A DNA stretch of 50,222 nt from Candidatus Dadabacteria bacterium. Its GTDB lineage: Bacteria > Desulfobacterota_D > UBA1144 > Nemesobacterales > Nemesobacteraceae. Location of the stretch: positions 4,185 through 54,406 of the forward strand of contig JAPPFE010000033.1 of assembly GCA_028823955.1 (NCBI GenBank), given 5' to 3'. How positions within the stretch are numbered: the stretch's first letter is position 1; each line of letters begins with the position of its first letter. The position numbers and the translations under genes are program-made. The notes beneath the pieces are model-generated. The model did no database searches. It was not told the DNA's origin and saw only the letters and a program-made list of their open reading frames with translations. Of the stretch, positions 1 through 18,824 are shown in pieces.

Positions 1-2
1 CT

Positions 3-668
3 TACGGTTTTCCGATGATGGACCTTGTTCAGGAAGGTTCGATAGGACTGATGCGTGCCGTTAAGAAATTCAATCCCTACAGGGGCTACAGGCTCATATC
101 CTATGCCGTCTGGTGGATCAGGGTAAGGATCCAGAACCATATAATGAAGTTCTGGAGCAACGTAAAGATCGGAACAACGCAGTCCCAGAGAAAGCTTTTC
201 CAGAGAATAGAAGGGGCGAAGCGCAAGCTCGGGATAACAGCCGCTAGCATGGAAGATGACGACATAAGCCGTCTTGCGGACCATTTCGGCGTCAAGGAAG
301 AGGAAATCTCAGAGATGCATGTTCGTGCTTCCAAAAGAGATCTTTCCCTCTCGGAACGTCCCGCAGGGGACGATTCCTCAGTCACTTACGCGGAGTTGCT
401 CCCTGATCCGTCGGATAACCAGGAACAGGTGCTCGGTGAGCTCGGGTTTGACAGCCTTGCCAGGGAGAATCTGCGCGAAGCTCTCGAGACGCTCTCCGCA
501 AGGCAGAAAAAAGTGATAAACGAGAGGTATTTCACTGAACCTCCAAGAAAACTCCACGAAATAGCCCAAGATCTCGGGGTTTCCCAGGAGAGGGTAAGGC
601 AGATACAGGCCGAGTCCATAGGGAAACTCAGGGGATACATGGCCGAAAGACTTGAAACTCACCCCTAA
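3..668 (+). CDS. rpoH: RNA polymerase sigma-32 (heat-shock sigma factor), 5'-truncated by window edge
   Basis: The reading frame is open to the left edge, so the N-terminal part is missing; the first visible residues are LYGFPMMDLVQEG. Visible are sigma region 2 (DLVQEGSIGLMRAVKKFNP, then a YAVWWIR segment corresponding to the region 2.4 helix) and a C-terminal region 4 helix-turn-helix ending in the QERVRQIQAESIGKLR recognition helix. The variant TTQSQRKLFQ after region 2 is typical of RpoH rather than RpoD. It directs core polymerase to heat-shock promoters. Only 26 bp separate it from dnaK, so the two are probably co-transcribed; sigma-32 activity is classically controlled by DnaK, which makes the pairing meaningful. 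RpoH family membership is clear; the missing part is only region 1.2 and the start of region 2. Confidence 0.9.
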   Translation, partial: YGFPMMDLVQEGSIGLMRAVKKFNPYRGYRLISYAVWWIRVRIQNHIMKFWSNVKIGTTQSQRKLFQRIEGAKRKLGITAASMEDDDISRLADHFGVKEEEISEMHVRASKRDLSLSERPAGDDSSVTYAELLPDPSDNQEQVLGELGFDSLARENLREALETLSARQKKVINERYFTEPPRKLHEIAQDLGVSQERVRQIQAESIGKLRGYMAERLETHP

Positions 669-694
669 CAAGAAGAAAACCCAGGAGGAATTAA

Positions 695-2614
695 ATGGCT
701 TCTAAGATAATAGGAATAGACCTTGGAACAACTAATTCATGCGTAGCCATCGTTGAGGGCGGCGAGCCAAAAGTGATAATCAACGAGGAAGGCACGAGAA
801 CCACCCCTTCGGTAGTCGCGTTTCTAAAAGGCGGAGAAGAGGTTCTGGTTGGCGGACCGGCGAAGCGCCAGGCCGTCGCCAATCCCGAGAACACCGTCTA
901 CTCTACCAAAAGGCTTATGGGCAGAAGGTTCGAGGAGATATCGAGCGAAGCTGACAGCCTTGCCTACAAAGTAGTGAAATCAGGCAAGTCGGACGCGTGG
1001 GTCGAGGTTGAGGGAAAAGAGTACTCTCCCCCGCAGGTCTCAGCGCATGTGCTCATGAAGCTTAAGAAGGCCGCAGAGGATTACCTGGGTTCAGAAGTCA
1101 CAGAAGCCGTTATCACCGTTCCCGCGTATTTTAACGACAGCCAGCGTCAGGCCACAAAAGATGCCGGGAAAATAGCCGGCCTTGACGTAAAGCGCATAAT
1201 AAACGAACCGACCGCGGCGGCTCTTGCCTACGGATTCGATAAGAAGAAAGAAGGCATGATAGTTGTCTACGATCTCGGAGGCGGAACTTTCGACGTGTCG
1301 GTGCTCGAGGTCGGAAACAACGTCATAGAGGTTAAGTCCACAAACGGCGATACCCATCTCGGAGGAGATGACTTTGACAAGAGGGTGATCGACTACATCA
1401 TCTCCGAGTTCAAAAAGGATTCAGGAATAGACCTCGGGGCGGACAAAATGGCCGTGCAGAGGCTCAGGGAAGCCGCCGAGAAGGCCAAGATCGAGCTTTC
1501 AAACACCGTCGAGACGGAAATAAACCTGCCGTTTATAACGGCTGACGCGAGCGGTCCCAAGCACCTAGTGATGAAGATAACGCGCTCAAAGTTCGAGCAG
1601 TTGATCGAGGATCTCGTAAAGGGCACTTTGAAGCCCTGCGAGCAGGCCCTTAAGGATGCGGGGCTTCGCCCGGGCGAAATAGCCGAGGTGATACTGGTCG
1701 GCGGATCGACCAGAATTCCGCTTGTGCAGAAAGTCGTTACTGACTTCTTCGCAAAGGATCCGAGCAGGGGGATAAACCCTGACGAGGTGGTTGCCATGGG
1801 AGCCGCGATACAGGCGGGTGTCTTGGGAGGAGACGTAACCGACATGCTTCTCCTCGACGTGGTACCGCTCTCACTTGGCATAGAAACCTTGGGAGGGGTC
1901 ATGACCACCATCATCGAGAGAAACACGACCATTCCCACCAAGAAAAGCCAGATCTTCACAACGGCAGAGGACAACCAGAATTCGGTTGAGATCCACGTGC
2001 TTCAGGGAGAGCGGCAGATGGCTAACGACAACAGGACGCTTGCCAGGTTCATTCTGTCGGGTATTCCCGCGGCGGCAAGGGGAATTCCGCAGATAGAGGT
2101 AACTTTCGACACCGATGCCGATGGAATACTCCACGTATCCGCCAAGGACAACGCAACCCAGAAGGAGCAGAAAGTGAAGGTCGAGGCCTCAAGCGGGCTA
2201 AGCAGCGACGAGATCGACTCCATGGTAGAGGAAGCCGAGAAGATGTCCGAGAAGGACAAGGAAAAAAGCGAGCAGGTTCAAAAGAGAAACCAGCTTGACG
2301 AGCTTGTCTACAGGACCGACAAGAGCTTCCAGGAGCTTGGCGACGGTCTCTCCGAGGATGAGAAAAAGGAGCTAGAACAGGCTCTTGAGGAGGGAAGGGA
2401 AGCCCTTAAGTCGGATGACTTGGCCAAAATTGACCTTGCGACGGAGAAGATAACCGCCGTCTCTCACAAACTTGCCGAACTTATGTACAAAAAGCAGCAG
2501 GAAGAAGCCTCTGCGGGTGCCGGGGAGGGTGGACAGGAGAACCCGACGTCAGAGCAGGGGAATTCCACCTCGGGCGACGACGTTATAGACGCCGAGTTTA
2601 CCGAGCAGAAATAA
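695..2614 (+). CDS. dnaK: Molecular chaperone DnaK (Hsp70)
   Basis: A 639-residue Hsp70, full family length. It opens with [18 protein letters not shown], the first phosphate-binding loop of the actin-like ATPase domain. It contains the second loop [16 protein letters not shown], the adenosine motif [13 protein letters not shown] and a substrate-binding domain, and ends in a Gly/Ser/Glu-rich tail with [12 protein letters not shown], close to the classic EEVD-like bacterial end. A strong ribosome-binding site AGGAGG lies about 8 bases before the ATG. It folds cytoplasmic proteins with DnaJ and GrpE. Neither partner gene is next to it here: the gene after dnaK is the start of the defence island, where dnaJ might be expected. 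Co-transcription with rpoH is likely. Confidence 0.98.
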
Positions 2615-2666
2615 GCTTTGGGTTCTTAATTAGTCTTCCATTCTTTTTCTTAATCTGATTCTTAAC

Positions 2667-5600
2667 TCAAATAAACCAAGGGGTGCGCTCCAATACATCA
2701 TGGAGCCTGAACTCACCCTGCTGTTGACGCTGAAAGGCAGCTGTTAGATATGCAATATCTTTAGCGTATTTTGTAGTGATTGGCTCTGCGCACAGTGAGT
2801 CAGTGGATGCCCAGTTGAGCTTTGTCAGGCTCAAGATTTGGCGAGCGAGTGCATGATGATCAATCGGAGTTCGTGTCCTGTTAGTTGCCGGATGATCGAC
2901 ATAGACATTAACCTCCAAAGCCTGAGGAGTGCCCCGAATCTTACGATACTGATTATAGCCAGTTGTAGAAATATATATCTGATTGGGTGAACTAATTACA
3001 TAACGCCCACGTGCAACTGAACCATCCGTTTCGGTTCGCTGATCAAACAAGCGCACAGGGTGGTGTGAATTGATCCAGACGAAGACATATTTCCCGTTTG
3101 GTCGAATCTTACGTGCACCTCGTAGGATTGCGTCGCGGTCAGTTCGGCTGAATCGAGCCGAATAATGGAACCACACAGTAGGATGTTCTGACAGGTTGAG
3201 TTTCTCCATAGTCGATGATACGAGTTCCTCATAGTGATGTTCTCTTTCTGTATAGGGCACTGCACCATTACCACCAGAATAAAATTCCCACCGTCCATAG
3301 TGGTTAAACACATTGGCAAACCCCAGCATTCGGTCGTCTAATTGCTCCCGGCTACTCGTATAAGATAATCCGATGAAAAAATCCGCGTCAGGGATGGACT
3401 CCGGTAGTACCCAAGGAGTGACCCCGGTTTTAGCAACGATGTTGAGTGCGAGGTTGAGATCCTTGAAATCTGGATTCTGAAGCGTTGGAGTATCTACCAT
3501 CTGGCACGGTACGCCCGATTCAAGTAGTACACGTTTTGCTTTATAGTAAGGCGAATTCATATCATCGAGGGCGAATCCAGCTTCCGGCGTGTGAACCAGC
3601 ATCACTCGGTTAAGATTTGCGTTGCCGGTCCAAGACGGATACTCGCGGATCAGACGTCGGCATTCTTCATCAACGCTAATTCCGTTTGCGCTTGACACTT
3701 GGGCAAGTTTTATCCGCGTTGAAAATGTTCTTTCCGCACCACGATATCTATAAGTACCCGACTGAAGCCGGGAAACGAGATTACGCATCTGGCTTTCGAA
3801 ACCAGGCTTGACTACTGCGATGATGTCAAGGTCTCGTGGACTGTCTTCATAAGCACCAAATGAGGTGATTCCGTCGCGAATATTTGCTGTCGTCCGTCTC
3901 TTGGCGAACTCAACATCAGGTTCTTGTGTCTCCTGAATACGCCAAGCTCTTTTGCCGTCTCCATGCTCAAGCAGCTTGAGCGGCTTTGTATCAAGTAAGA
4001 TCTTTTTGTCGCCAAGGACCAACGGAAAAATTGTCTTTGCGAGATTAGAAACCGTGGAACTTATCCGTGATGCCCGAATTCGTGCGGCGCCCACTTCGGT
4101 TGACAACGCGGCCTTCTTGATTGCCTTGGAAAGGTTAAAAGCGGGAGCAGCCTCCTGAACAATTTCATCAATCATGTCACGCCGCAAGCTTGGAAATACG
4201 TGCTTTGCTGGCAAAGTATATTGTTCATCGCTGTCAAACAAACAAAGGGTTACATATTCAGTGTCTGCTTCGACTATTTGTCCCCTTATTAGCTTGCCAT
4301 TTAAAGATGCGAATGCTTTTAGTCCTTGCAACGGACTCGAACCGTACTTCGCAATAACTTTCTGAGCTGTCCAGATGCTTTGCACCTGCAATTTGTAATC
4401 AACGACGAGATAGTAGTTCCCATGATAAGATCTGATGCTTAAGGAATAAGCGGGAATATTTCTCAATATGTGCTTTAAAGAGGATGGCAGTTGCTCTTGG
4501 GTGTTTTTGAGATGAACTACGGCTTTTCCCTTGTCAAGACTGTCAATCACCCAGTTGTTTTCCTCCAGCTTATTGCAAAGCGCTTTAAGAAATATCTGGC
4601 GTTGTTCGTAACTGCCGTTCTTAGATGTATTTACTTTTAATCCCCTTAATTGATAAAGGTTTGAAAACTCATCAGAGACAATATCTTGTTCACTAGCTAA
4701 TCCTGTTGGTTTAACTTCACGACGCGACGCATCATTGCGCAGAACAACAATGGTTTCAGTCTCTTTCAAAACGTAGGTAGGGGATGGAAGACCAAGTTCT
4801 TTCATCTCGTCACGCATTCGGCGAGTGCCCTCACGGATTGCTTTGACGTAAGGATTACCCCTTGCATCTTTCATTGATCGGAACCAGTCTATGATCTTCC
4901 GGTTTCTCGGGAAACTCTCGAGCATCTGTTCAGTTAAAGAAAACTCTGCCGGTATGGATCTGGGCTGCAGCAGTCGTCCCGGACTCTTCACGACGAACGA
5001 GTCTGTGTATTTTTCACATGTGATCGGTTGCTGTGAGATTCCGTAGTCGCGATGTACTACCGCGTTTACTACTGCTTCGTCAATTGTTATATTGGGATAT
5101 TCTGGTTCTGAGGTGAATCCACCTTCAGTTGAACGGACTTCATATTTTTTGAAGAATCCCGATTCAGTTATAAAAACCCGAAAGTCGCGTATCTGTTTAG
5201 TCAGGGATCCATCAAAGTCTTTTTCAAAAGAGGGTGTCGGGCGTTCATCCTCATCTTCATACGAGCATTCAAAGCGCAGAAGACGTATATAGGACTGGGG
5301 TAATACACGTTGCGGATTGTAAGTAAAGAACAATAACCCGGCGTTTGTCCACTGGTAATCGTTAGGATTCCCGTTCACAGCGCCTGCATCTCGCAGTACC
5401 TGCTCTAATGGTCGGTTATCATTTCCTTCTATTCGACTTTTGATAAATTCTTCCAGTACAGCATTGTCTATATCGTCTGGATTAAATACTTCAGTTTGAA
5501 TGCGTTCGAAGTCTACTACTTTTCGATCACGTTTTACCTGCTCAAGCTCCGGTCCGCGCAATTGTATACTGGCGTAACCTCTCCTAAGCCATGCAGCATC

Positions 5601-6053
5601 ATCCTTTATGCGGTAACAAAATGTTCGCTCATTCGATTCAACCATGAACAATGCGATATTGACAGTGCTTCCCTTAACCGTCACCGGGTGCAGTTTTGAT
5701 TTTATCATGATTCCCGCCATGCCCTGCGGATTTAGAAGAGCGTTTTTCTCACCTTCACCGAGAAAATCAACGCCAGTAATTTGACCTGTCTTGCTGATTC
5801 CGAGAATGAGAAGACCACCATTGGCATTAGCAAATGCCGACATAGTTTTTTCAACGTGTTCCAAAACAGTTTGGAAACTTGTTTTTTGCATTTTTCCCTT
5901 ATTGTCAATTTGTCCCACCTGTTTGCGGTCGAAATGTTGACCTTCAAATTCATTGTCATCCGATACGCAGATGAAGTCCAGATGAGAGGTTGGGTCCGCA
6001 AAAACAGCTTTGAAGTCAGGTTTCAACATTCTATCGAGATGTTTTTCCGGCAA
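2667..6053 (-). CDS. Schlafen/AlbA_2-GHKL-Argonaute (MID-PIWI) fusion protein, probably non-slicing
   Basis: 1128 residues counted from a TTG at 6053; an ATG eight codons on (6029) is an equally good start, and a stop codon lies just upstream. Residues about 35-175 look like the AlbA_2 (Schlafen) domain, with E37, the FDRK motif at 41-44 and ANANGGLLILGI at 75-86. Residues about 180-430 resemble the COG2865 region, with E326, N330 and HRDYG at 334-338 as in GHKL-type folds. Residues 460-800 look like an Argonaute N/L1/PAZ-like segment. MID follows, with YYK at 836-838, Q851 and K875, matching the Y-K-Q-K 5'-phosphate pocket. PIWI runs from 884 to 1128, with the signature end LTKLNWAS and PITTKYAKDIAYL. 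The expected first catalytic Asp is Ser897 (IGLSY) and the second appears to be Asn995 (WINSHH), so slicing is probably lost. Inferred role: guide-loaded sensor with an attached Schlafen-type nuclease effector. The Argonaute assignment is from motifs by eye. Confidence 0.75.
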   Translation of the reverse strand: MPEKHLDRMLKPDFKAVFADPTSHLDFICVSDDNEFEGQHFDRKQVGQIDNKGKMQKTSFQTVLEHVEKTMSAFANANGGLLILGISKTGQITGVDFLGEGEKNALLNPQGMAGIMIKSKLHPVTVKGSTVNIALFMVESNERTFCYRIKDDAAWLRRGYASIQLRGPELEQVKRDRKVVDFERIQTEVFNPDDIDNAVLEEFIKSRIEGNDNRPLEQVLRDAGAVNGNPNDYQWTNAGLLFFTYNPQRVLPQSYIRLLRFECSYEDEDERPTPSFEKDFDGSLTKQIRDFRVFITESGFFKKYEVRSTEGGFTSEPEYPNITIDEAVVNAVVHRDYGISQQPITCEKYTDSFVVKSPGRLLQPRSIPAEFSLTEQMLESFPRNRKIIDWFRSMKDARGNPYVKAIREGTRRMRDEMKELGLPSPTYVLKETETIVVLRNDASRREVKPTGLASEQDIVSDEFSNLYQLRGLKVNTSKNGSYEQRQIFLKALCNKLEENNWVIDSLDKGKAVVHLKNTQEQLPSSLKHILRNIPAYSLSIRSYHGNYYLVVDYKLQVQSIWTAQKVIAKYGSSPLQGLKAFASLNGKLIRGQIVEADTEYVTLCLFDSDEQYTLPAKHVFPSLRRDMIDEIVQEAAPAFNLSKAIKKAALSTEVGAARIRASRISSTVSNLAKTIFPLVLGDKKILLDTKPLKLLEHGDGKRAWRIQETQEPDVEFAKRRTTANIRDGITSFGAYEDSPRDLDIIAVVKPGFESQMRNLVSRLQSGTYRYRGAERTFSTRIKLAQVSSANGISVDEECRRLIREYPSWTGNANLNRVMLVHTPEAGFALDDMNSPYYKAKRVLLESGVPCQMVDTPTLQNPDFKDLNLALNIVAKTGVTPWVLPESIPDADFFIGLSYTSSREQLDDRMLGFANVFNHYGRWEFYSGGNGAVPYTEREHHYEELVSSTMEKLNLSEHPTVWFHYSARFSRTDRDAILRGARKIRPNGKYVFVWINSHHPVRLFDQRTETDGSVARGRYVISSPNQIYISTTGYNQYRKIRGTPQALEVNVYVDHPATNRTRTPIDHHALARQILSLTKLNWASTDSLCAEPITTKYAKDIAYLTAAFQRQQQGEFRLHDVLERTPWFI

Positions 6054-6067
6054 AAATTAACCGGAAA
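6044..6067. promoter_or_regulatory. Inverted repeat overlapping the start region of the Argonaute fusion gene
   Basis: Perfect 7-bp arms TTTCCGG (6044-6050) and CCGGAAA (6061-6067) flank a 10-base AT-rich loop. The element covers the TTG start codon at 6053 and lies 15 bases before the alternative ATG at 6029. It could be an operator or a hairpin in the 5' end of the mRNA. No clear Shine-Dalgarno sequence is seen for either start, which fits translation being weak or controlled. Confidence 0.45.
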
Positions 6068-6202
6068 GGTAGTGCCCAAAGTAAAACAAGCTCCTCCCAA
6101 ATTTTCTATATGTTGTGTTAAAGAACAACTGGTCACATATATATTGAATGTGCGTCTTAAAAAGGAAATGTCAAGAGATATTAATAAAACTGGTTAGCAT
6201 CA

Positions 6203-6240
6203 TGCACTATTATGTGCAATGCAGAGATCAGAGAGATCAG
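6203..6240. repeat. Small inverted and tandem repeats between the divergent island operons
   Basis: The gap between the Argonaute gene and the DUF4143 gene (6054-6321) holds an inverted repeat TGCAC-N6-GTGCA at 6203-6218. It is followed at once by a perfect tandem 9-bp repeat AGAGATCAG (6223-6231 and 6232-6240). Such elements between divergent genes are often regulator sites, but no regulator gene lies next to them. The rest of the gap is AT-rich, with no convincing ORF or RNA gene. Confidence 0.35.
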
Positions 6241-6285
6241 ATGCTCTCGTAACGGAATATTGTTTTTGTTTAATAAAATGTTCTC

Positions 6286-6314
6286 TTGACTATTTTTACT
6301 CAATAATGTAATTT
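6286..6314 (+). promoter_or_regulatory. Possible sigma-70 promoter for the plus-strand island operon
   Basis: TTGACT at 6286-6291 and TAATTT at 6309-6314 are separated by 17 bases. The predicted transcription start would fall at or just before the ATG at 6322, giving a leaderless or nearly leaderless mRNA; consistent with this, no Shine-Dalgarno sequence precedes the ATG. The -10 match is modest. Confidence 0.4.
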
Positions 6315-6321
6315 TATACAT

Positions 6322-7575
6322 ATGAAATCTTTTCAGCGTTCTCAGGTTGCAGTGCTTTGCGACCGATTAGCCGAACCTCCCCACCATATTATTACCATTT
6401 TCGGGCCTCGCCAGACCGGAAAAACCACCATCGTGCAACAGGCGCTTCGGCGGATAGATGTCGGGAGCCGTTACTTGGCGGTTGATGAACCCCGGCCTCC
6501 AGGGCCGCGTGGTTCATACGATGAATCAGAAACAATCCCGGTTTTTTCATATGAGCGCGGCACGGACTGGCTGGTGCGAGTCTGGGAGGAAGCCCGCCGC
6601 GAGGCACAGCGATCCGGACGGGGATTCGTTCTGGCACTGGATGAGATTCAGAGAATTCCCCAGTGGTCACAGACCTTAAAGGGGCTCTGGGATGCCGACC
6701 GCGCCCAGGATTGTCCTCTGCACGTAGTTATTCTGGGTTCGGCGCCTCTGCTCATGCAGTCAGGACTTAACGAGAGTCTTGCTGGTCGTTTTGAACCTAT
6801 ACGCGTTGCGCACTGGTCCTTTGAGGAAATGTCCAATGCCTTCGGTTTTAGTTTGGATGAATACTTGTATTTCGGCGGCTACCCGGGCTCAGCCAAGTTC
6901 GTTCAAGATCTGGACCGGTGGCGCGCTCATATTCTCCAGGCTATCGTCATGTCTAGTATCGGCCGGGATATTCTCTCCATGACGCGGGTGGACAAGCCGG
7001 AACTGCTCAAACGGCTTTTCGAGCACGGAGCGGATTATTCAGGGCAGATTCTTTCGTACACCAAAATGCTAGGTCAACTTATGGATGCCGGCAACACGAC
7101 CACCTTAGCGCGTTACCTTGACCTGCTGTCGGATGCCGGTCTGCTCGTGGGTTTCGGGAAATACCATAATAAATCTCATCTTCGTAAGGGGTCAAGCCCC
7201 AAGTTAAACGTGCTCAACACCGCTTTGATGACGGTCGGTTCTGGGTATTCCTTTGAAGAAGCTATGGCAGACCGGACATTCAGGGGGCGCATAGTCGAAA
7301 GTGCGGTCGGTGCTCACCTGTCAAACACCGCGACACCCGATATCAGTGTTTATTACTGGCGGGACAAATCGCTTGAGGTCGACTTTGTCCTCAGGCGCGG
7401 CCCTCACCTTATTCCCGTTGAAGTGAAAAGCGGCCGGAAGTCTGTGCATCTCGGGGGGATTGAAGCGTTTAAGCGGAATTTTGGTGCCCGTCGTTCGCTT
7501 CTTGTCGGAGAAGGTGGCATACCGCTTCATGAGTTTTTCACGGTGCCCGTGAATCAATGGTTTGAGGAAAAATGA
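6322..7575 (+). CDS. AAA_14/DUF4143 family ATPase
   Basis: 417 residues. Walker A GPRQTGKTT (28-36) and Walker B FVLALDEIQ (102-110) form an AAA-type ATPase core. The C-terminal DUF4143 part carries an EVDFVL...PVEVKSG pattern with D354, E367 and K369, the arrangement of a PD-(D/E)XK nuclease-like fold common in this family. Proteins of this type are widespread and poorly understood, and often sit in defence or toxin-antitoxin neighbourhoods. The stop codon overlaps the start of the next gene by 4 bp (ATGA), so the two are translationally coupled and probably act together. It may be the first gene of the plus-strand island operon. Family assignment is firm; the role is unknown. Confidence 0.85.
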   Translation: MKSFQRSQVAVLCDRLAEPPHHIITIFGPRQTGKTTIVQQALRRIDVGSRYLAVDEPRPPGPRGSYDESETIPVFSYERGTDWLVRVWEEARREAQRSGRGFVLALDEIQRIPQWSQTLKGLWDADRAQDCPLHVVILGSAPLLMQSGLNESLAGRFEPIRVAHWSFEEMSNAFGFSLDEYLYFGGYPGSAKFVQDLDRWRAHILQAIVMSSIGRDILSMTRVDKPELLKRLFEHGADYSGQILSYTKMLGQLMDAGNTTTLARYLDLLSDAGLLVGFGKYHNKSHLRKGSSPKLNVLNTALMTVGSGYSFEEAMADRTFRGRIVESAVGAHLSNTATPDISVYYWRDKSLEVDFVLRRGPHLIPVEVKSGRKSVHLGGIEAFKRNFGARRSLLVGEGGIPLHEFFTVPVNQWFEEK

Positions 7576-10500
7576 ACAAAATCGTCCCACGCACGTGCAA
7601 GGAGGTTCTGCCACCGGATTCGGACCAGGATAAGGGTTCCCTGCCCCTGAAGGAATTTCGCTCCGCTATGGCCTATGTGCTGCTGGGCAACCCCGGTTCT
7701 GGCAAAACGACCGTGTTTGAGACTGAATGCAAAGCACTCGGAGATGACGCGTGTTTTATCACTGCGCGCGATTTTCTCGCTCTTGACCCGGACAGTCATC
7801 CCGAGTGGCGGGGTAAGACTCTTTTTATTGACGGACTTGATGAAATTCGCACCAGCGCGTACGACGCGCGCAGGCCTCTGGACAAAATCCGCAACCGCAT
7901 TGATAAGCTTGGAAAACCGCGCTTTCGCATCTCATGCCGCAGTGCGGACTGGCTGGGGGAAAACGATCTGAAACACTTGGCGCGTGTGTCGAAAGATTCC
8001 GCAGTAACTGTCCTGCTCCTTGATCCCCTGACGGACTCGGATGTCGTCAGTATTCTGGACAGGCATCCAGACATCCACGACTCTCAGGAATTCATCGCAT
8101 CGGCTTGGAAATGGGGGGTGAAAGGACTGCTGGCAAACCCACAGAATCTTAAATTGCTGATCAGGAGTGTAGTCAAAGATGGCAGGTGGCCGGAAAACCT
8201 TCTTGAGACTTTTGAGAAGGCCTGTTCACAGATGATCCGAGAGCACAATGAAGAACACAGGGAGGAGCAACAGTACACCACTTGCCAGCTTCTTGATGCC
8301 GCTGGATATCTCTGCGCCGTTTCGCTGGTTTGCGGGTCTGCCGGATTTGCGCGGGGTTGTGATTCCGCGGATGAAGATTATCTGGATCTTGACCGTTTGA
8401 ACTACGACCACCACGAGGCGCTCGGCGCTGCACTTTCAACTAGGTTGTTTGAGGCGGAATCCGATAATCGTCGTTTTGTTCCCGTTCATCGATACATTGC
8501 TGAATTTCTCGGCGCGCGCTGCCTCGCCCGCCTGATTGACAAAGGAGTTCCGCCCCGGCGGATACTCGCTCTGGTTACCGGAGAATACGGAGTCGTGGTC
8601 ACGCAGATGAGAGGTCTTTGCGCGTGGCTCGCAGTTCATTGCGAGAAAATCCGCGTGAACCTCATCAAGCGCAATCCTATCGGCATCTTTCTGTACGGAG
8701 ATATCAGCGTATTCTCGAATGAAGAGAATATGGCGCTCCTGGAAGCCCTGTGCCGTGAGAGGTACCGACCGGGTTCCGCATTCACGGTGGTCGATGTGTA
8801 TAGGACGCTTACCGCTCCTAAAATGGAATCTATCTTCAGAGATGTCCTGACTAGTCCCCGCCGTAGCGAACAGCATCAGGCATTAACCGAGTTTATATTA
8901 GACGTTTTGAAACAATATGAATTCATGCCGGGTTTTTCCGAGATTCTGCTAGAAATCGTCCGTGATAACACTTGGCTGCCTTACATTAATAAATTAGCCC
9001 TTGATACATTTATCTCTACTTGTCCGAAAGATTCGGAAATTAGGGGCGAACTCAAAGCATTACTGGCGGATATTCACGACGGAAGCATCTCCGATCCTGA
9101 CAACGAACTCCTCGGGACGTTGCTTTTGAAACTCTACCCCCGACAATTGCCTCCATCTGAGATTTGGGATTACCTTTACGAGCCGGTAGGTCGGGAGTCA
9201 GAAGGTACATACTGGCAGTTCTGGCAATCTGCTTTTTGCGACAGATTTTTAGAGAACCCAGAGGTGGAGGAACTTGAGGTGGAGGAACTTTTAGACAGTC
9301 TGTGGCGGCGGATTTCCGGTTTGCGAACCGCTTTTGATACTTGGCTCCTGAATGATCTTCCCCTCAGACTTTTGCTTTGCGGCCTACAGATGCATGGAGA
9401 CCGAATAGGCCGGGAACGTCTTTATGACTGGCTCGGTGTCGGATTGTCTGAGAATGTAAAGCATGACGAATATTGTCTGGAACCGATTAGTCAGATACGT
9501 GCTTGGCTTGAACAGTCTCCTGAGATTCAAAAGACTATTTTTGAAGAAGGTCTGAACCGATGTTCCGAATCCACTGAATTCAGTTATCACGCACTCAATA
9601 TACAAAGGCGGCTGTATGGAGCGACTCCTCCACCTGATTTTGGTCTCTGGTGCCTGAAAAAAGCTGTTGCAATGCCAGAGAGCAGGTCGCAAGCCTCCCG
9701 GTTTTTGCTCATACAGGCCGTTGAAGCGCACAAGTATCAAAACGGCAACGAAGGATTATCCCTTGAAGTCTTGGGGGAAACCACGAAAAACAGCGGAAAT
9801 TTATCTGACGCCCTGAAGTGCCTGATCGTGGAACCGGAGGTTCAGAATGAACTTCCGTGGAGAGACGGCGGACAAAGCCGTGAAGAAAAAGAGGAGAATG
9901 AAGATAGGCAATGGATAGACCATGTTTATACCAACAAGGATGCTTTGTGCGCAAACGTTGCCCACCCGGGACTGCTTCACGAAATCGCTGAGATATATTT
10001 TGGAAACTACTACTCCTGGCAGGATTACTACGGTCCGGAGAATATAAGGAAATGGCTTCCAGGCCACGGCGACTTGGTCAAGGCTGCACTTGTGGGACTT
10101 CGCAGGACAATTGAACGGGAGGATGTTCCTTGCACCGATGAGATTTTCGATCTTCTAGGTGAAGGCAGGACGCACTCTATAGGACTGCCTTTTCTTGCGG
10201 GCTTAGCAGAAGTCGAAAGAACGGAGTCGCAAGACTCCTCGCTATGGGAAGAGACCTGTATTCGCAGGGCGCTTCTTTTTTATTATCTTGCGCGCGTCAA
10301 CAATAGCTATGAGCCCAAATGGTACCTGCGGCTTGTTAAGACGCATCCTGAGATCGTGGCCGATACTCAGGCACGGTTTGCCGTTTTCGGTTTTCGAGGC
10401 GGCATAGAGGATATTCGCAAGCTTCGGGAGCTTGCCCGAAATAACAGGCATGCTCAAGTTGCCCACATCATAAGTTTGCCCTTGCTTCAATCTTTCCCGG

Positions 10501-11636
10501 TTCAGTGCACTCTGAAACAGATTCGGAATATGGACTATTTGCTCTGGGCGGCTCTGAAGTATGCCGACAGGGATGCCCTTGGGGAACTTATCGTCAGGAA
10601 GCTCAAGCTCGGGAGCTTGAACGTTGCCCTGCGCTCGCGCTGGCTTGCGGCGGGTCTGATTGTCAGCCCGGAAATATATAAAGACCAGTTAGAGGATTTT
10701 GTGCGAGGTCGGGAAGCCAGGGTTCAGCATCTAGCGACCTTTTTGACACTTGGGAATCCTCGGTGGTTCTTGTTGGATGAACTTGAAATTCCCGAATTGG
10801 AATTGCTGATCCGCCTTATCGGAAGTTACTTTGAACCTGTCTTAAGTCCCGGACTTGGGATCTCTGCGCCTGAAAAGCAGTTTTCCGGCCTTGTTTACGA
10901 CCTGATAGAACACCTTGCTACTGATGAGAGATCAGGCGATGCGCTTGACAGACTTCAAGCCGACCCGATGTTGGAACGTTGTCATTACATTCTGGCTAGG
11001 ATGTCGGAAGTTCATCGAACAAGCCGCAATGATGCCGGTTACCGACATCCTGACATCGTGCGGGCTTGCCAGACGTTCAGTAACGGAGCACCGGCCAACG
11101 CTGCTGACCTTGCGGCTCTTTTGGTGGACCGGCTGAGTGAGATCGCTGAAAAAGTTCAAACGGACAATGCGGATGAGTGGCGCAAGTACTGGAACGAAGA
11201 TTCCCATGGACAACCAGTTAGTCCCAAGCACGAAAATTCCTGTCGCGATATTCTACTCTCGGATCTGCGAGGACTTCTTCCGAAGGGCCTGGATGCCCAG
11301 CCCGAGGGTCAGTACGTCAGGGACAAGAGAACCGATATACTAGTTTTTTCATACGGAGATTTTCGTGTTCCCATAGAGATTAAAAAGAACGGAAGCAAGG
11401 ATTTGTTGAGTTCGCTCAGAGACCAGTTGATTGCTTTGTATACAAAAGATCCTGCCACCAGTGGGTACGGTATCTACTTGGTACTCTGGTTCGGAAAGAA
11501 ATACTCTAAACCACTGCCTTCCGGTAGGCGGCCGCACGATTTTCAGGAACTGCGGGAAAGGATTGAGTCCGTTTTGTCGGAAGATGAATCACTCAGGATA
11601 TCGGTCTGTGTCATTGATGTAAGCGAAGGCGAGTAG
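7572..11636 (+). CDS. Large STAND/NACHT-like NTPase with C-terminal PD-(D/E)XK nuclease domain
   Basis: 1354 residues. An N-terminal P-loop GNPGSGKTT (39-47) and Walker B TLFIDGLDEIR (83-93) resemble NACHT/STAND NTPases. A very long helical middle region without recognised motifs follows, of the size expected for a sensor of repeats. The C-terminal ~110 residues hold D1255, E1269 and K1271 (TDILVFSYGDFRVPIEIKK), a PD-(D/E)XK nuclease signature. A known plan in bacterial STAND immune proteins is sensor, NTPase switch and effector; here the effector appears to be at the C-terminus and the NTPase at the N-terminus, an uncommon order. A perfect 15-bp tandem duplication at 9261-9290 encodes EVEEL twice. 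The gene is coupled to the DUF4143 ATPase upstream and lies 12 bp before the radical SAM gene. The exact family is not recognised. Confidence 0.75.
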   Translation: MNKIVPRTCKEVLPPDSDQDKGSLPLKEFRSAMAYVLLGNPGSGKTTVFETECKALGDDACFITARDFLALDPDSHPEWRGKTLFIDGLDEIRTSAYDARRPLDKIRNRIDKLGKPRFRISCRSADWLGENDLKHLARVSKDSAVTVLLLDPLTDSDVVSILDRHPDIHDSQEFIASAWKWGVKGLLANPQNLKLLIRSVVKDGRWPENLLETFEKACSQMIREHNEEHREEQQYTTCQLLDAAGYLCAVSLVCGSAGFARGCDSADEDYLDLDRLNYDHHEALGAALSTRLFEAESDNRRFVPVHRYIAEFLGARCLARLIDKGVPPRRILALVTGEYGVVVTQMRGLCAWLAVHCEKIRVNLIKRNPIGIFLYGDISVFSNEENMALLEALCRERYRPGSAFTVVDVYRTLTAPKMESIFRDVLTSPRRSEQHQALTEFILDVLKQYEFMPGFSEILLEIVRDNTWLPYINKLALDTFISTCPKDSEIRGELKALLADIHDGSISDPDNELLGTLLLKLYPRQLPPSEIWDYLYEPVGRESEGTYWQFWQSAFCDRFLENPEVEELEVEELLDSLWRRISGLRTAFDTWLLNDLPLRLLLCGLQMHGDRIGRERLYDWLGVGLSENVKHDEYCLEPISQIRAWLEQSPEIQKTIFEEGLNRCSESTEFSYHALNIQRRLYGATPPPDFGLWCLKKAVAMPESRSQASRFLLIQAVEAHKYQNGNEGLSLEVLGETTKNSGNLSDALKCLIVEPEVQNELPWRDGGQSREEKEENEDRQWIDHVYTNKDALCANVAHPGLLHEIAEIYFGNYYSWQDYYGPENIRKWLPGHGDLVKAALVGLRRTIEREDVPCTDEIFDLLGEGRTHSIGLPFLAGLAEVERTESQDSSLWEETCIRRALLFYYLARVNNSYEPKWYLRLVKTHPEIVADTQARFAVFGFRGGIEDIRKLRELARNNRHAQVAHIISLPLLQSFPVQCTLKQIRNMDYLLWAALKYADRDALGELIVRKLKLGSLNVALRSRWLAAGLIVSPEIYKDQLEDFVRGREARVQHLATFLTLGNPRWFLLDELEIPELELLIRLIGSYFEPVLSPGLGISAPEKQFSGLVYDLIEHLATDERSGDALDRLQADPMLERCHYILARMSEVHRTSRNDAGYRHPDIVRACQTFSNGAPANAADLAALLVDRLSEIAEKVQTDNADEWRKYWNEDSHGQPVSPKHENSCRDILLSDLRGLLPKGLDAQPEGQYVRDKRTDILVFSYGDFRVPIEIKKNGSKDLLSSLRDQLIALYTKDPATSGYGIYLVLWFGKKYSKPLPSGRRPHDFQELRERIESVLSEDESLRISVCVIDVSEGE
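9261..9290 (+). repeat. 15-bp perfect tandem duplication inside the first STAND-like gene
   Basis: GAGGTGGAGGAACTT occurs twice in a row (9261-9275, 9276-9290), adding five residues in frame (EVEEL repeated). It looks like a recent slippage duplication in a variable helical region. Confidence 0.8.
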
Positions 11637-11648
11637 GGGAGATATTTT

Positions 11649-12557
11649 ATGAAAATACGAAAAGGGCCGGATGGCATCCATTTTTTTGATAGGACCTCAG
11701 GCACTAATCTGTTGTTGGATGAATTTGTTCCTTCTCCTGAGACTTGGAGCAAATCTCCAAGGCAAGTGTCCATTGCACTAACTAATGCGTGTGATCTTAC
11801 CTGCCCGCACTGCTACGCTCCAAAAACAAAAGCGATACTGGACAGCCAGCTTGTTAAACGATGGATGTCCGAGTTAGATGAACAAGGCTGTTTTGGTGTC
11901 GGTTTTGGCGGCGGGGAACCAACTTTGCATCCCGAATTGGTCGATATTTGCAATTATGGACACTCGGAAACCGGTTTGGCGATTACGATAACTACTCACG
12001 GGCATCATTTAAGCGATGAACTGTTGTCCCAGATTTCCGGAAGCGTGAATTTCATCCGCGTGAGTATGGATGGAGTGGATTCAACCTACGAATCGATCCG
12101 TAACCGTCCCTTTAATCGATTGCTTGTAATTCTAAAAAAGCTGGGTTGCTTTGTGCCATTTGGAATTAATTACGTGGTCAATTATAGAACTATTGATGAC
12201 ATTGATAAGGCTGCCCTTGTTGCTGAAGATTATGGAGCAAACGACCTTCTCTTGCTTCCCGAAGAACCGTTTGGCAGAGGCATGAGAATCGATAGCCAGT
12301 CGCTTGAACGGTTAAAGAAGTGGGTGCATGCGTATAAGGGAAACCTTCGGTTGTCTGTTAGTTCTAATTACGCAGCCGAGTTCTCAAGCATTATGCCACT
12401 TGAGAAAGAGCCCCTGGAAATGGCTTTTTCTCATATTGATGCTGAAGGTGTTCTGAAACGAAACTCCTTCGAGAATACTGGTTGTAAAATTAACGGCCTT
12501 GGTGTTATAGCTGCATTTAGGTTGTTGAATAAATACATGATAGGAGGTTATGCATGA
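11649..12557 (+). CDS. Radical SAM enzyme, island-associated
   Basis: 302 residues. The C-x3-C-x2-C cluster motif is at 48-55 (CDLTCPHC), followed by the GGGEP SAM-binding motif at 87-91 and a SMDG segment, all standard for the radical SAM superfamily core. The C-terminal part is short, with a single Cys in NTGCKING, and lacks a full SPASM cysteine set. The reaction and substrate cannot be told from sequence; plausible roles are peptide or protein modification or nucleotide-analogue synthesis as in viperins, although the viperin motif is not seen. Its stop overlaps the next small gene by 4 bp, so the two are coupled. The next gene could be a partner or a substrate. The gene is visibly more AT-rich than the STAND gene before it, suggesting a different origin. 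Confidence 0.85.
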   Translation: MKIRKGPDGIHFFDRTSGTNLLLDEFVPSPETWSKSPRQVSIALTNACDLTCPHCYAPKTKAILDSQLVKRWMSELDEQGCFGVGFGGGEPTLHPELVDICNYGHSETGLAITITTHGHHLSDELLSQISGSVNFIRVSMDGVDSTYESIRNRPFNRLLVILKKLGCFVPFGINYVVNYRTIDDIDKAALVAEDYGANDLLLLPEEPFGRGMRIDSQSLERLKKWVHAYKGNLRLSVSSNYAAEFSSIMPLEKEPLEMAFSHIDAEGVLKRNSFENTGCKINGLGVIAAFRLLNKYMIGGYA

Positions 12558-12946
12558 AAATTTGGCAGAGTTACGGTTCTGAACACTCAATGAATCTCGT
12601 GATGATTGGCAGGTTCAAACAGGAAAGCGATGCTGAAAGGATCAAGGGGGTTTTTGATTTCTTACTTGAGAAACTTCGGGACTTGCCTGATTCTGATATT
12701 AAAGAAGATCGATTTACCAGTGATGTAAGAGATTTGCTGCGTTCAAAAAATATACACTATCTGTATCCAAAGGAATTAACACAATTCTTGTACGATGTTT
12801 CTTTTGAGCACAATGGTAATGAGATACGAATCACCACCGACGAGGACGATGTTTCAGCAATGCTGAAAATCATGCTTGTGGAAGGGGCAAAGGTAGAAGT
12901 GTTTTCAGCGCACGATTATCCGGAATCCGATACGCCGAAGCGATAA
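12554..12946 (+). CDS. Small protein coupled to the radical SAM gene (possibly DUF6375 family)
   Basis: 130 residues, acidic, no signal peptide or membrane segment. The opening MKIWQSYGSEHSMNLVMIG recalls a small uncharacterised family that I believe is DUF6375, but I cannot confirm this. The start overlaps the radical SAM stop by 4 bp, and the next gene follows within 10 bp. Tight placement between the radical SAM enzyme and a nuclease-STAND protein suggests it is an obligate component, for example an adaptor or the substrate modified by the radical SAM enzyme. It contains no cysteines or extended glycine core like RiPP precursors. Confidence 0.7.
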   Translation: MKIWQSYGSEHSMNLVMIGRFKQESDAERIKGVFDFLLEKLRDLPDSDIKEDRFTSDVRDLLRSKNIHYLYPKELTQFLYDVSFEHNGNEIRITTDEDDVSAMLKIMLVEGAKVEVFSAHDYPESDTPKR

Positions 12947-12954
12947 AGTTGACC

Positions 12955-15900
12955 ATGCTTGATTGGCAGAAATTCAAAGAACTTACTGGAGATGACGCTA
13001 AAAACTTCGAGAAGTTATGCCGAGGCATTGTGCGCAGAAGATTCGGGAAGTTTGGGCCGCTTATTGAACGAAAGAATCAACCGGGTGTCGAGTTCTATAT
13101 CCGCCTTGATCGAGATTGTTCTGAGTTAGGTGATTCTGGGGACAAGATCGGATGGCAGTGTAAGTGGTTCAAGCTAACAGTAGACGGGAAATTAACTTCT
13201 TCTGCAAAGAGCCAGATTCTACATTCCCTTGATATGACGAATAAGCACGTTGAAGGTTTAAATAGTTGGATACTCTGGACTCCCTTCACTTTAGCTAGAG
13301 CAGACCAAGAATGGTTTTATCGTCTACAATCTGGTTACAGTTACAAGTTGTGTTTGTGGAACCACGATGACGTTAATAGTTATTTGCAAGGTCCGGCGCT
13401 TGAGCTAAGGAATGCATACTTTGGCGAACTCGCGTTAACTGAAGATCTTTTAAAAGATCGGCATTGTTTGTCCGTGGCTCCAATAAAAGGACGATGGATT
13501 AAAGAGGTTCATCATCAGGTTCGGGTCGAAAGACAGTTGAGGCAATACCTCGGTGAACCTTCAGCTTGGGATGAGTTCAAAGAAGCTGGTGCTTCACTGT
13601 CAGAAGCTTATGAGACGATAAAAAGAGATGTTAAAGAAGCTGTTTATTCCGATTGGTCTGAAGACCTGAAGAGTTTTCTGCTGTTTTGCTCAGAGTGCTT
13701 GAAGTTCACTGAATATTTTACAAATACTCTAAGTGCGGAGGACATCGAATCTGTTAACACCATGCTTGATCAGGTTAAATTGCTTGATGTACAGATTCAT
13801 ACCGTCCTACGGCAAACAAGAAGTAGGAATTTGCCACTTGCCATAGAAATTACTAACTCTCTTGCTTATATAAAGGACATTAAGAATCTGCTGGAAGAGG
13901 CATCGGAATATTTGTCCTGCTCTTTTGTCGCCGTGCTAGCGGATGCAGGGGGTGGAAAAACCCAGATGGCGGCTGAACTAACAGCGGTTCAGTCGGACCG
14001 CCCTGCGGGAATTTTATTGCATGGGCGTCGCTTTAAGAAGGGGGGTAGTTTGAATGATCTTGCTAGGGACATCTCATTTTATGGAAAAGAGGTGCCAAAT
14101 TTTCAGGCGTTGCTTGTTGCCCTTGATGCTGCGGCTGATCGAGGCAACTGCCGTTTACCCATTATTATCGATGGTCTGAGCGAGGCAGAAGAACCCCGGG
14201 AATGGAAACCAGAGCTTGAAACAGCGCTGGAATTGCTCAAGGATTATCCAAATGTATTGTTTATATGCACATTAAGAACTGGTGAGCGGGAGCGACACAA
14301 GTTTGTCCCTCGCCGTTCTAATGAAGTGCGTAGCCGAGAAGTTTTCGCGCAGATGGCTTTGCCTGAAGACTGTGTTTGTCTTGAGTGTGAGGGCTTTGGT
14401 GATTTAACCATGAAGGCTGTCAAAAGCTACTTTCAACATTATAAGATCAAGGCTGATTTAATCCAGATCCCGAAAAATTTCTTTGGACACCCCTTGAACT
14501 TGCGGATTTTTTGCGAGGTCACTAATAGAAAGGCCGACAAGACAGTAACCGTTACCAGCTTCCCTGCCTCGATCACAACCTTATTTAGTAAGCAAATCGA
14601 ATACGTAGCTAAAAGGATATCTGAGTTCACTAATTTCCAACAACCTTATAGTGAAGTTAACGTTCAGTCGGCTGTTTTCCATCTTGGCAAGAAGTTATGG
14701 GAGTCGAGGGAGAGGCAGATTCCTGAGGCGGATTTGCTTCATTCACTTGATCAGTTAGGCAGAAGCTGGGATGAGAATATTATCAATTTACTGGCACAAG
14801 AAGGAATAATATTTCGCGATCCAGGCAATATCCCTGGTGTATATTCAATCACCCCGGTTTTTGATCAACTGGGCGGATATATCATTGCTGATGCTCTGTT
14901 GAGGGAAAACCAAGATGATCCCACTTTTGATTGGATACAGAATCAAACCAGCTTAGACATGCTGTTTGGAGAAGGCGAGTCAAATCATAGCTTGTCCCAA
15001 GATATTTTACATTCCTTAGCAGCCCTTGTTCCTCGATATTCAAATAATCAGAAACAATTGTGGATGATTGTTCCGAATGAATACAAAGAAACAGTAGTTG
15101 AGTTATCAACATTGATTGATGTTGATAACTTCTGTGATGAAACCAAAGAAGAATACAGAAAGCAGATGTTACAAAAGGGACTAAGTTATCCTACACTACG
15201 TCGTTTAGAAAGGGTTCGTACTTCCGGAAATCACCCGCTCAACGCAGATTTCCTGAGTGATTTATTAAAAGATCTATCCGTGGCGGAAAGAGACCTTTCA
15301 TGGACTGAGTTTCTCAGAAGAAATCCTGATTATTCTGATTATATGTTGTCCGAAATCAAATATTTTGAGCAACGCTGGAAGTCTGACGACATACTTAAAA
15401 CTGAAGGAGACAGGCTTCAGGCTGTATGGGTTAGCTGGCTACTTACGTCAACATCTATAGAAATACGAGACCGTTCTACAAGAGCTCTTTATTGGTATGG
15501 TAGAAGCTGCCCGAAAAATTTGTTCGAAATGACTATTTCTTCGCTAGACATCAATGATCCCTATGTTCCTGAAAGACTTCTAGCCGCTAGCTACGGTGTC
15601 GTTATGTATTTTGTTTATAAAGAGATATGTATGGAAGAAATGAAATGGCTGGTCACCCGTCTATACGAGCATATGTTCTACGAGCCGGCGAAAAACCCGA
15701 CAACACACCTCTTGGCTCGGGACTACGCAAGCAAAATAATAAACATAACAAGGGACCTGCTGCCGGAAGCATTATCCGAAGAACAACTGGCAGATTCTTT
15801 ACCTCCCTATGCTTCCATGCCGAGACAGAAGTGGGGCTCCGCAGATAAGAGTGCGTTAGGACTTGGATATATGTCTCCTTTGGGGATGGATTTTGAAAAC

Positions 15901-17109: not shown

Positions 17110-17139
17110 CTAGCCAAGCTTTTCGGGAGGAATATTCTA

Positions 17140-17679
17140 ATGTCCAAGAGGGGATTCGACCATTTCTTTGGTATGCAAAGGGCAAAATCTATGCTATTCC
17201 TTGCAAGAGAACTAAAAGAGACTACCGATATCAAAAAGCAAGACCCTCTCTTGTATGAGGGAAGAATAGTAACAACTCCAGCTCTTTTCACACTAGCTAC
17301 AGAGCTTGCACTTAAAGCACTGTATTGCCAAGAAACAAAGAGCAATAAAGCTGAAGCCACTCACGACTTGATAAAGCTGTTTGAGCAACTAGAGGAAAAT
17401 ACACAAGAAGAACTTGAAGCAACATTCGAAGAGTTAGGGAGAAACACGCGAGGACGACTTGAAGCAGAGTGGCCGAAGCCACCATCAAAGATACGATATG
17501 TTTTGCACGAGAGCAGAAGAACCTTCGTCTCTTGGCGGTATCCTTCTAGATCTTCTCTTACATGTTACACTGGGGAACTCGATGAAGTAATTTCTACAAT
17601 AATCAAGATTTATGACAAAAGAGAGAGGGATTCTCGGCCAAGCATATATTATAGTTCCCACCTAAGAGTATTGGTTTAA
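17140..17679 (+). CDS. HEPN-domain protein (first of two)
   Basis: 179 residues, all predicted helical. The segment LATELALKALYCQ...THDLIKLFEQL (about residues 51-83) is the pattern of HEPN domains that accompany nucleotidyltransferases and Abi systems. No classic R-x4-6-H RNase motif is seen, so it may be a non-catalytic or partner HEPN. A ribosome-binding site GGGAGGA lies before the ATG. It follows the second STAND gene by 30 bp on the same strand and is probably the last gene of that operon. Its end overlaps by 4 bp the end of a second, oppositely transcribed HEPN gene. Confidence 0.65.
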   Translation: MSKRGFDHFFGMQRAKSMLFLARELKETTDIKKQDPLLYEGRIVTTPALFTLATELALKALYCQETKSNKAEATHDLIKLFEQLEENTQEELEATFEELGRNTRGRLEAEWPKPPSKIRYVLHESRRTFVSWRYPSRSSLTCYTGELDEVISTIIKIYDKRERDSRPSIYYSSHLRVLV

Positions 17680-18503: not shown

Positions 18504-18824
18504 TGGTGAGATTCCCCTCGAAGATTGTTTGGAATAAAGCTACTGGATCAGTTGTTTTCCTGTGACTATATAAAGATAATGGAAATCTTCACAACAGTGA
18601 AATACATACAAGAACCTCCGACTAGCTATGTATATAATTCCCTTGCGGGAGTAGTGATATTTTTTCCCCTGCGGTTAAACTGCTTTTCCGAATCCGGGCT
18701 TGCGCTCCGGGTCCAAAGCACCTTTTTGAGCGTCTGAGGCCGGATTCCAGATTGCAAGGACAGCGTGGCTGCTCCATGTTGCAAATTTCCCCGTGGCCCC
18801 GCTTCGCCACGTTTTGCATGGATA
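18504..18824. other. Intergenic region between island and pyruvate dehydrogenase operon
   Basis: A 321-bp gap. The left part is AT-rich like the island, while the right part (from about 18660) has the composition of the chromosome, so the island edge probably lies near 18650. No tRNA, integrase or clear direct repeat matching the sequence after dnaK (2615-2666) is seen. The right end holds the hairpin described separately. Confidence 0.4.
18792..18815 (+). terminator. Hairpin with short T-run just upstream of aceE
   Basis: CGTGGC (18792-18797) and GCCACG (18806-18811) form a 6-bp GC-rich stem with an 8-base loop, followed by TTTT (18812-18815). It ends 9 bases before the aceE ATG. It could be a weak intrinsic terminator or a leader hairpin controlling aceE. 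Confidence 0.35.

Follow-up and report, generated by a model that had tools for sequence, protein, structure and literature searches.

The window analysed here, i.e., the whole 50,222-nucleotide stretch (positions 4,185 to 54,406 of contig JAPPFE010000033.1, Candidatus Dadabacteria bacterium), harbours on its minus strand a single open frame of 1128 codons (6053 down to 2667). The frame encodes, in N- to C-terminal order, an AlbA_2 (Schlafen) domain, a GHKL domain, an N/PAZ*-like region, a MID domain and a PIWI domain (Table 1). It starts with TTG (6051–6053), the next in-frame ATG (6027–6029) corresponding to Met at residue 9. The PADLOC profile PDLC02394 for prokaryotic Argonautes (pAgos) matches residues 12–1128 with its positions 2–1121 of 1121 (1405 bits). 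The next-best PADLOC profiles are those of other pAgos, first PDLC02436 (460 positions, residues 706–1113, E 8e-71) and then the class II profile PDLC02379 (residues 519–1127, E 9e-38). One frame matched end to end bears out the single-chain fusion proposed in an earlier sequence-only reading of this DNA.

The same domain order is present on four other replicons (~37–47 % identity): (i) plasmid 3 of Rubrobacter radiotolerans (WP_200805567.1, L023 3640–7056; full length, 46.7 % identity over 99 %), i.e., a full-length likeness differing by its plasmid location in an actinomycete, (ii) a metagenome-assembled genome of Bryobacterales (Acidobacteriota; full length, 43 %), (iii) the IMG/VR contig 3300035010_000006 (full length, 45 %), where the gene lies beside a serine recombinase, and (iv) the 67-kb viral IMG/VR contig 3300027863_001680 (L040 2986–5499), in which 838 codons are open, the frame stops early in MID and no continuation was found in the remaining 134 bases to the contig end. 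Since the identical order was found on five replicons, an assembly artefact is rejected. WP_200805567.1 is annotated merely as 'RNA-binding domain-containing protein', and its Argonaute half is therefore hidden in the Rubrobacter record.

Pairwise identity among the four full-length members amounts to 60–71 % in PIWI, 52–61 % in MID, 25–40 % in the N and 24–38 % in the PAZ-L2 region, with GHKL (47–56 %) being the best-conserved N-terminal part as compared to AlbA_2 (32–44 %). In a tree with 28 stand-alone AlbA_2-GHKL proteins, the N-terminal modules of the five fusions form one group (support 1.0), so that a single fusion event is the simplest reading.

The architecture has already been recorded. 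Ryazansky 2018 (PMC6299218; this and the following publications are cited from parts of their text) described AlbA_2 fused to several long-B pAgos, which agree with PDLC02394 and the window protein in length and architecture; our guess is that the profile was derived from these proteins. In the parts covered, that paper contains nothing on GHKL, a lost carboxylate or a tested function. No experiment on the AlbA_2-GHKL-Argonaute architecture was found in one open-access library, which covers few subscription papers and preprints. The earlier statement that this form is uncharacterised thus apparently holds for experiments, while the architecture itself was reported in 2018 and has its PADLOC model. 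The gene represents a real, rare and mobile-looking single-gene Argonaute system.

Table 1. Positions of the fusion gene and its parts in the window
Feature	Position	Strand	Basis
Whole gene, AlbA_2-GHKL-N/PAZ*-MID-PIWI fusion, 1128 aa	2667..6053	-	Open frame; PADLOC PDLC02394, 1405 bits, end to end
AlbA_2 / Schlafen domain, residues 37–161	5571..5945	-	Pfam PF04326; model 12–149 on SLFN11 188–327
Active-site-like motif E37-x-Q-H-x-D42-R-K44	5922..5945	-	Conservation in fusions; lines up with SLFN12 ESTHVEIK
Linker, residues 162–252 (border approximate)	5298..5570	-	Stretch separating both folds of the model
GHKL / HATPase_c_4 domain, residues 253–445	4719..5297	-	Pfam PF13749 at 343–438; histidine-kinase catalytic domains on 253–446
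GHKL N-box E326..N330..H334-R-D-Y	5043..5078	-	Present in 5/5 fusions
N-domain-like region by position, residues 446–589 (weakly supported, border approximate)	4287..4718	-	PDLC02379 aligns from residue 519
PAZ*-L2-like region, residues 590–706 (border approximate)	3936..4286	-	hhalign with long pAgos begins near residue 590
MID domain, residues 707–885 (border approximate)	3399..3935	-	Matches to EcAgo and 6d95/5awh
Guide 5'-end pocket Y836, K840, Q851, K875 (putative)	3429..3548	-	Alignment to 6d95 and 1yvu
PIWI domain, residues 886–1128, catalytic residues predicted lost	2670..3398	-	EcAgo, 6d95/5awh and 1yvu alignments
Ser897, GID Asp position	3363..3365	-	1yvu alignment; Ser in 4/4
Ser965, HRDG Asp position	3159..3161	-	1yvu alignment; Ser in 4/4

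Guide pocket and PIWI domain

Sequence matches in the PDB comprise EcAgo (residues 751–1098) and 6d95/5awh/6d8a (residues 728–1108; PDB label 'Uncharacterized protein', which we take to be RsAgo), with the EcAgo match strengthening to E 4e-18 when the four-member profile is used. In MID, Y836, K840, Q851 and K875 are aligned to the Y, K, Q and K of 6d95 and are invariant in all four full-length members (window gene included), as expected from the Y-K-Q-K pattern recognised previously; these residues presumably form the guide pocket. In PIWI, Ser897 aligns to the Asp of the GID motif and Ser965 to the Asp of HRDG in the Aquifex Argonaute (1yvu), and both are Ser in the four full-length members; the two Asp are assumed here to be catalytic PIWI positions. 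The YAx position, taken as the fourth catalytic one, is K1098 in the window protein and Gly in the other three. Alignment of the tetrad thus corrects the sequence-only reading, which had placed Ser897 and Asn995 at the catalytic Asp positions: the former assignment is right, whereas Asn995 sits in the FVWIN strand following Ser965 and not at a catalytic position. The supposed loss of slicer residues itself is retained with Ser965 in place of Asn995. As judged from these alignments, the guide pocket is predicted to be intact and PIWI to be slicer-dead, with two catalytic Asp replaced by Ser, and the Argonaute is probably able to hold a 5'-phosphorylated guide.

In hhalign, a profile of the C-terminal halves of the four full-length members could be aligned to seven long pAgos of the free-standing type from about residue 590 to 1128 (probability 99.6, E 1.5e-23), and to four short pAgos in MID-PIWI alone (99.0, E 2.1e-18). 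The stretch preceding MID therefore resembles PAZ*-L2 of long pAgos. Features of long-B pAgos are accordingly present, i.e., the N-PAZ*-MID-PIWI order (with weak support for the N domain at 446–589) and, by sequence alignment, the MID guide pocket and the loss of the PIWI catalytic tetrad. In a MID-PIWI tree of 17 sequences (4 fusions, 8 long pAgos, 1 archaeal and 4 short pAgos), the fusions constitute one group (support 100), separate both from a clade that unites seven long pAgos with the archaeal sequence (100) and from that of the short pAgos (100); the neighbour of the fusions is an Adhaeribacter protein (L024), placed with weak support (60; FastTree 0.708). Fusion MID-PIWI forms its own branch in this small tree, which neither confirms nor refutes the filing of AlbA_2 fusions under long-B by Ryazansky 2018 (PMC6299218). 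PDLC02436 (class not stated), the best partial PADLOC match, is also strongly matched by two SPARTA-type pAgos, and MID-PIWI may branch nearer to the short pAgos than assumed.

The Pfam Piwi model (PF02171) gave no match in the own genome; that model therefore misses this PIWI domain. A mixed 26-row alignment was dropped, since free-standing pAgos had their N/PAZ portions wrongly aligned to the Schlafen half.

AlbA_2 and GHKL domains

The AlbA_2 fold proposed for the N-terminus was corroborated by Pfam SLFN_AlbA_2 (PF04326, residues 37–161, 38.8 bits, cut-off 25.3) and by an AlphaFold model of residues 1–450 (21-row alignment; mean predicted local distance difference test (pLDDT) 87.8, predicted template modelling score 0.80). 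Residues 12–149 of the model superpose on SLFN11 188–327 (Z 11.0, root-mean-square deviation (rmsd) 2.6, 122 residues). SLFN5, 12, 13 and 14 gave Z 9.5–11.2, with rmsd 2.6–4.9 among the Schlafen matches listed, and the tRNase domain of SAMD9 gave Z 10.9 (rmsd 4.7; 164 residues scattered across model positions 10–371); the AlbA_2 fold is thus shared with mammalian SLFN11–14 and SAMD9, all of which are devoid of the GHKL-Argonaute arrangement.

The RNase site of SLFN13 is formed by Glu205, Glu210 and Asp248 of its C-lobe, the protein possessing two lobes and the full carboxylate triad (PMC5862951). Profile alignment to SLFN12 (ESTHVEIK) assigns E37 and D42 as counterparts of the first two carboxylates; E37, Q39, D42, R43 and K44 are invariant in all five fusions, H40 in four. 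The third carboxylate of this E-E-D site is gone from every fusion, with Ser-Lys or Ala-Ala in its place (by alignment, not superposition). From model and alignment, the AlbA_2 domain is predicted to have the fold of the RNase-site lobe without the complete known site. Two stand-alone AlbA_2-GHKL proteins on viral contigs (L077 5941–7398, L078 5914–7401; outside the 28 counted) share E-x-Q-Y-F-D-R-K with the fusion and, by eye, retain an acidic third position.

The GHKL domain of the sequence-only reading is borne out: Pfam HATPase_c_4 (PF13749) matches residues 343–438 (29.4 bits, cut-off 26), and residues 253–446 of the model superpose on branched-chain ketoacid dehydrogenase kinase and on the catalytic domains of histidine kinases (Z 8.2–8.9 among the best 50 matches), Z-scores that are middling alone and with which Pfam agrees. 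The N-box (E326, N330, HRDY) is complete in 5/5 fusions; N330 is present in 28/28 and E326 in 27/28 stand-alone relatives, which include groups of close relatives and are not independent events. These 28 were counted out of 40 stand-alone open reading frames, after 12 partial, weak or redundant ones had been dropped (L007, L010, L011, L012, L015, L016, L021, the second frame of L027, L049, L054, L056 and L057).

Stand-alone regulators of this kind, presumably the group labelled COG2865, have AlbA_2 followed by HATPase_c_4 as in the window protein and end in a C-terminal winged helix, which the window protein lacks, carrying Argonaute in its place. The whole model (residues 12–445) matches DIP2311 (PDB 3LMM), an uncharacterised AlbA_2-GHKL protein without Argonaute, with Z 21.4 over 369 residues and an rmsd of 15.4; both domains therefore sit differently in the two structures. 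A review (PMC10573157) credits Makarova 2009 for Schlafen-ATPase fusions; since 'Schlafen' was not found in the main text of Makarova 2009 as far as covered, this credit is not adopted here.

PADLOC SIR2 profiles PDLC02402 and PDLC02418 (named SIR2-Kinase) match residues 211–363 and 228–363 of the window protein, respectively. From the SIR2 profiles, one member was taken (found in 1 of 347 Acidobacteriota genomes), i.e., a 900-aa protein with SIR2_2 at 102–209 and HATPase_c_4 at 464–556 (L072 1417–4119, L074 2486–6671), which matches the N-module profile of the fusions at 337–489. Its gene overlaps a 499-aa frame encoding a short pAgo (BLAST E 3e-53 to one of a SPARTA-type pair), and its C-terminal end is PNTD1-PNTD2 in PADLOC naming, here taken as APAZ. 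SIR2 hence occupies the slot of AlbA_2, and in both proteins GHKL separates the N-terminal domain from the Argonaute side; the acidobacterial system differs in comprising two genes, a SIR2 effector and a short pAgo. This slot correspondence, which is new in this analysis, represents the best evidence for AlbA_2 being an effector and GHKL a relay, an argument from position in one operon and two profiles. It yields the testable rule that GHKL is an interchangeable relay between effector and Argonaute. About 1.6 kb upstream of the SIR2-GHKL gene, a second, short match covers positions 1–98 of that SIR2 profile.

Candidate mechanism and alternatives

Domain order, the folds of residues 1–450, the guide pocket, the two Asp losses, the lack of a common neighbour and the SIR2-GHKL position are computed; type of guide and target, ATP use, the activation step, AlbA_2 action and the defence role we infer. 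A dead PIWI combined with an intact MID requires another output. The slicer-dead long Argonaute would hold a 5'-phosphorylated guide in one chain with its own effector and switch. Pairing of the guide with invader nucleic acid would change the shape of the Argonaute, and the GHKL domain, being ATP-bound or ATP-gated, would relay this change to AlbA_2. The latter may then act on nucleic acid of the cell or the invader, with RNA such as tRNA as the likeliest substrate, and thereby stop growth (abortive infection). That guide recognition by the dead Argonaute releases an AlbA_2 effector is a proposition for which the balance stands about level. The earlier reading of a guide-triggered defence device is thus partly supported, again at about even balance, and the observations underlying it are confirmed in part.

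Several lines of evidence favour this mechanism. (i) All eight free-standing long pAgos examined (L024, L025, L060, L061, L062, L063, L064 and L069) have an overlapping or abutting same-strand downstream frame, a DpnII-MboI nuclease in four cases (L025, L061, L062 and L069) and a product without Pfam match in the other four, whereas the fusions share no neighbour: no gene common to the four loci (window 1–20000, L023, L026 and L035) was found at E 1e-3 with frames of at least 60 aa. Other than the fusion, cross-locus matches were confined to short frames overlapping it and one 32-residue match (E 3e-4); L035 has only ~700 bases upstream of its fusion gene, so that this side was barely tested for partners. 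A shared operon partner is hence rejected for these four loci at this threshold, and together with the position of GHKL between SIR2 and the Argonaute side this lends support to the previously suggested self-contained device with GHKL as switch. (ii) AlbA_2 has the fold of the Schlafen RNase lobe and the SAMD9 tRNase, with E37, D42 and K44 invariant in 5/5 fusions. (iii) A SIR2 effector occupies the AlbA_2 slot, and GHKL is the best-conserved N-terminal part. (iv) The gene has a defence-island setting and low guanine-plus-cytosine (GC) content, with relatives on plasmid and viral contigs. Long-B pAgos work with separate toxic effectors according to Song 2023 (PMC10620215), whose main text, in the parts covered, contains neither 'schlafen' nor 'alba'. 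Plasmids with the CloDF13 origin trigger two long-B systems according to that paper. The BPAN/BPAS systems described there (EcAgo and others) likewise possess MID-PIWI with a dead PIWI and an intact MID; in their case the effector is a separate gene, whereas the window protein carries a fused module of another kind.

The nuclease step is the weakest part of the proposed mechanism, and the Schlafen-like nuclease of the sequence-only reading is sustained with respect to the fold and two of three carboxylates, not the third. The following weigh against it, or against the mechanism as a whole. The E..D/E.K motif is no nuclease signature, since it occurs in nearly all stand-alone AlbA_2-GHKL proteins (E in 28/28, E or D in 28/28 and K in 27/28). 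The third Schlafen carboxylate (K88 column) is acidic in 0/5 fusions versus 23/28 stand-alone proteins, and the neighbouring column (S87) in 0/5 versus 17/28; RNase activity of AlbA_2 is therefore only putative. Instead of a two-lobed pseudo-dimer in one chain as in SLFN13 (PMC5862951), one AlbA_2 lobe is present and the second domain is GHKL. SLFN5 keeps the triad and cut neither single-stranded nor double-stranded DNA (PMC8789055), while the title of PDB entry 7cux mentions cleaving of single-stranded RNA. AlbA_2 was treated as DNA-binding by Ryazansky 2018 (PMC6299218), and the PHROGs family of the N-terminal half is named 'DNA helicase'. Finally, the Argonaute half is based on sequence profiles, as a full-length AlphaFold prediction (3 sequences) reached a pLDDT of 43 and was set aside. 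More specific, and rather doubtful as a tentative proposal, is an immune device encoded by one gene: a dead Argonaute loaded with its guide would gate a Schlafen-fold RNase by way of the ATP-binding GHKL domain, and this RNase, its site remodelled to E-Q-H-D-R-K, would cut tRNA or rRNA.

The same loss of the third carboxylate in 5/5 fusions and the DNA-binding assignment of AlbA_2 by Ryazansky 2018 (PMC6299218) would fit a programmable binder rather than a killer. Here, Argonaute would have replaced the winged helix of an AlbA_2-GHKL regulator, guided binding would silence or mark invader DNA or RNA, and AlbA_2 would provide an extra binding surface with no nuclease step involved. The profile that includes stand-alone relatives indeed matches winged-helix regulators at the end where the fusion has Argonaute, even though the winged-helix Pfam matches of one member are weak and below the cut-off, and such an origin agrees with the swap of a regulator's fixed DNA reader for a guide-programmed one. 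Retention of the E37/D42/K44 cluster, SIR2 in the same slot of the related short-pAgo operon and the action of known long-B pAgos with toxic effectors (PMC10620215) argue in the opposite direction and render this explanation unlikely.

The absence of a slicer within the chain and the preservation of GHKL motifs in 5/5 fusions are also compatible with an N-terminal module that makes or loads guides (ATP-driven RNA processing or remodelling), the output coming from a protein encoded elsewhere. As no neighbour is common to the four loci, the same unlinked partner would be required on unrelated replicons, which makes this alternative quite improbable. A degraded or neutral fusion carried as mobile cargo, as could be suspected from its rarity (1/57 own-phylum genomes, 1/396 Acidobacteriota) and from the member ending early in MID, is highly improbable given 60–71 % PIWI identity across the four full-length members, an invariant guide pocket and a single group with support 1.0.

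If the one-gene immune device with its Schlafen-fold RNase were real, a bacterial protein would couple target recognition by an Argonaute to the effector fold known from the antiviral Schlafens of mammals. In case AlbA_2 is a guide-triggered RNase, the protein would constitute a compact programmable translation shut-off switch, in which two animal antiviral arms, Argonaute and Schlafen, are tied together.

Distribution and genomic setting

Full-length members were detected in 1/57 own-phylum genomes (the genome of the window itself; 11 others with partial matches) and in 1/396 Acidobacteriota genomes (the Bryobacterales one; a second match covers residues 61–450 only). Two further phyla, those of G059 (17 genomes) and G057 (1 genome), yielded none, and as the controls were silent there too, these searches show little. 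Scans of viral contigs yielded two fusion contigs overall, two other scans yielding none; none of the 15 records matched in the phage collection reaches a query coverage of 80 %. Among 49 plasmid matches (best 30 of 49), at least one is a full-length fusion. The Bryobacterales fusion is flanked by two genes that have one enolase-like domain in common (L026 5204–7048, 12628–13860), as if inserted among metabolic genes. Fusion and serine recombinase of contig 3300035010_000006 (L035 699–6512) are located near the viral contig end, as expected of integration-site cargo.

In the window, the fusion gene lies at one end of a defence island of low GC content (6322–17679) encoding (i) a PDC-S01 candidate (DUF4143 ATPase), (ii) an EruA-like NACHT protein (842 bits, NCBI cut-off 1000), (iii) a radical SAM protein weakly similar to viperin, (iv) a DUF6375 protein, (v) an Avs2-like protein of 1386 aa (372 bits with PADLOC; 274 bits with NCBIfam, cut-off 1000) and (vi) a small HEPN protein (21.7 bits, cut-off 22). 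The PDC-S01 candidate gene is divergent upstream of the fusion gene, and dnaK lies downstream, pointing at it. GC content is 45.4 % in the fusion gene, 46.3 % in 6054–17679 and 52.3 % from 18001 on. A sigma-32-like gene and dnaK (15–2614) adjoin the island, dnaK having 54 % GC versus 45 % in the pAgo gene.

The plasmid-encoded Adhaeribacter pAgo (L024 4884–8716) has an N-terminal zinc ribbon of the topoisomerase type, and the product of its overlapping 504-aa gene, without Pfam match, may be an effector. Two own-phylum genomes, one of them from the same genus, harbour two-gene systems of the SPARTA type, consisting of TIR-PNTD1-PNTD2 and a short pAgo (L038 4065–6974, L039 5833–8768).

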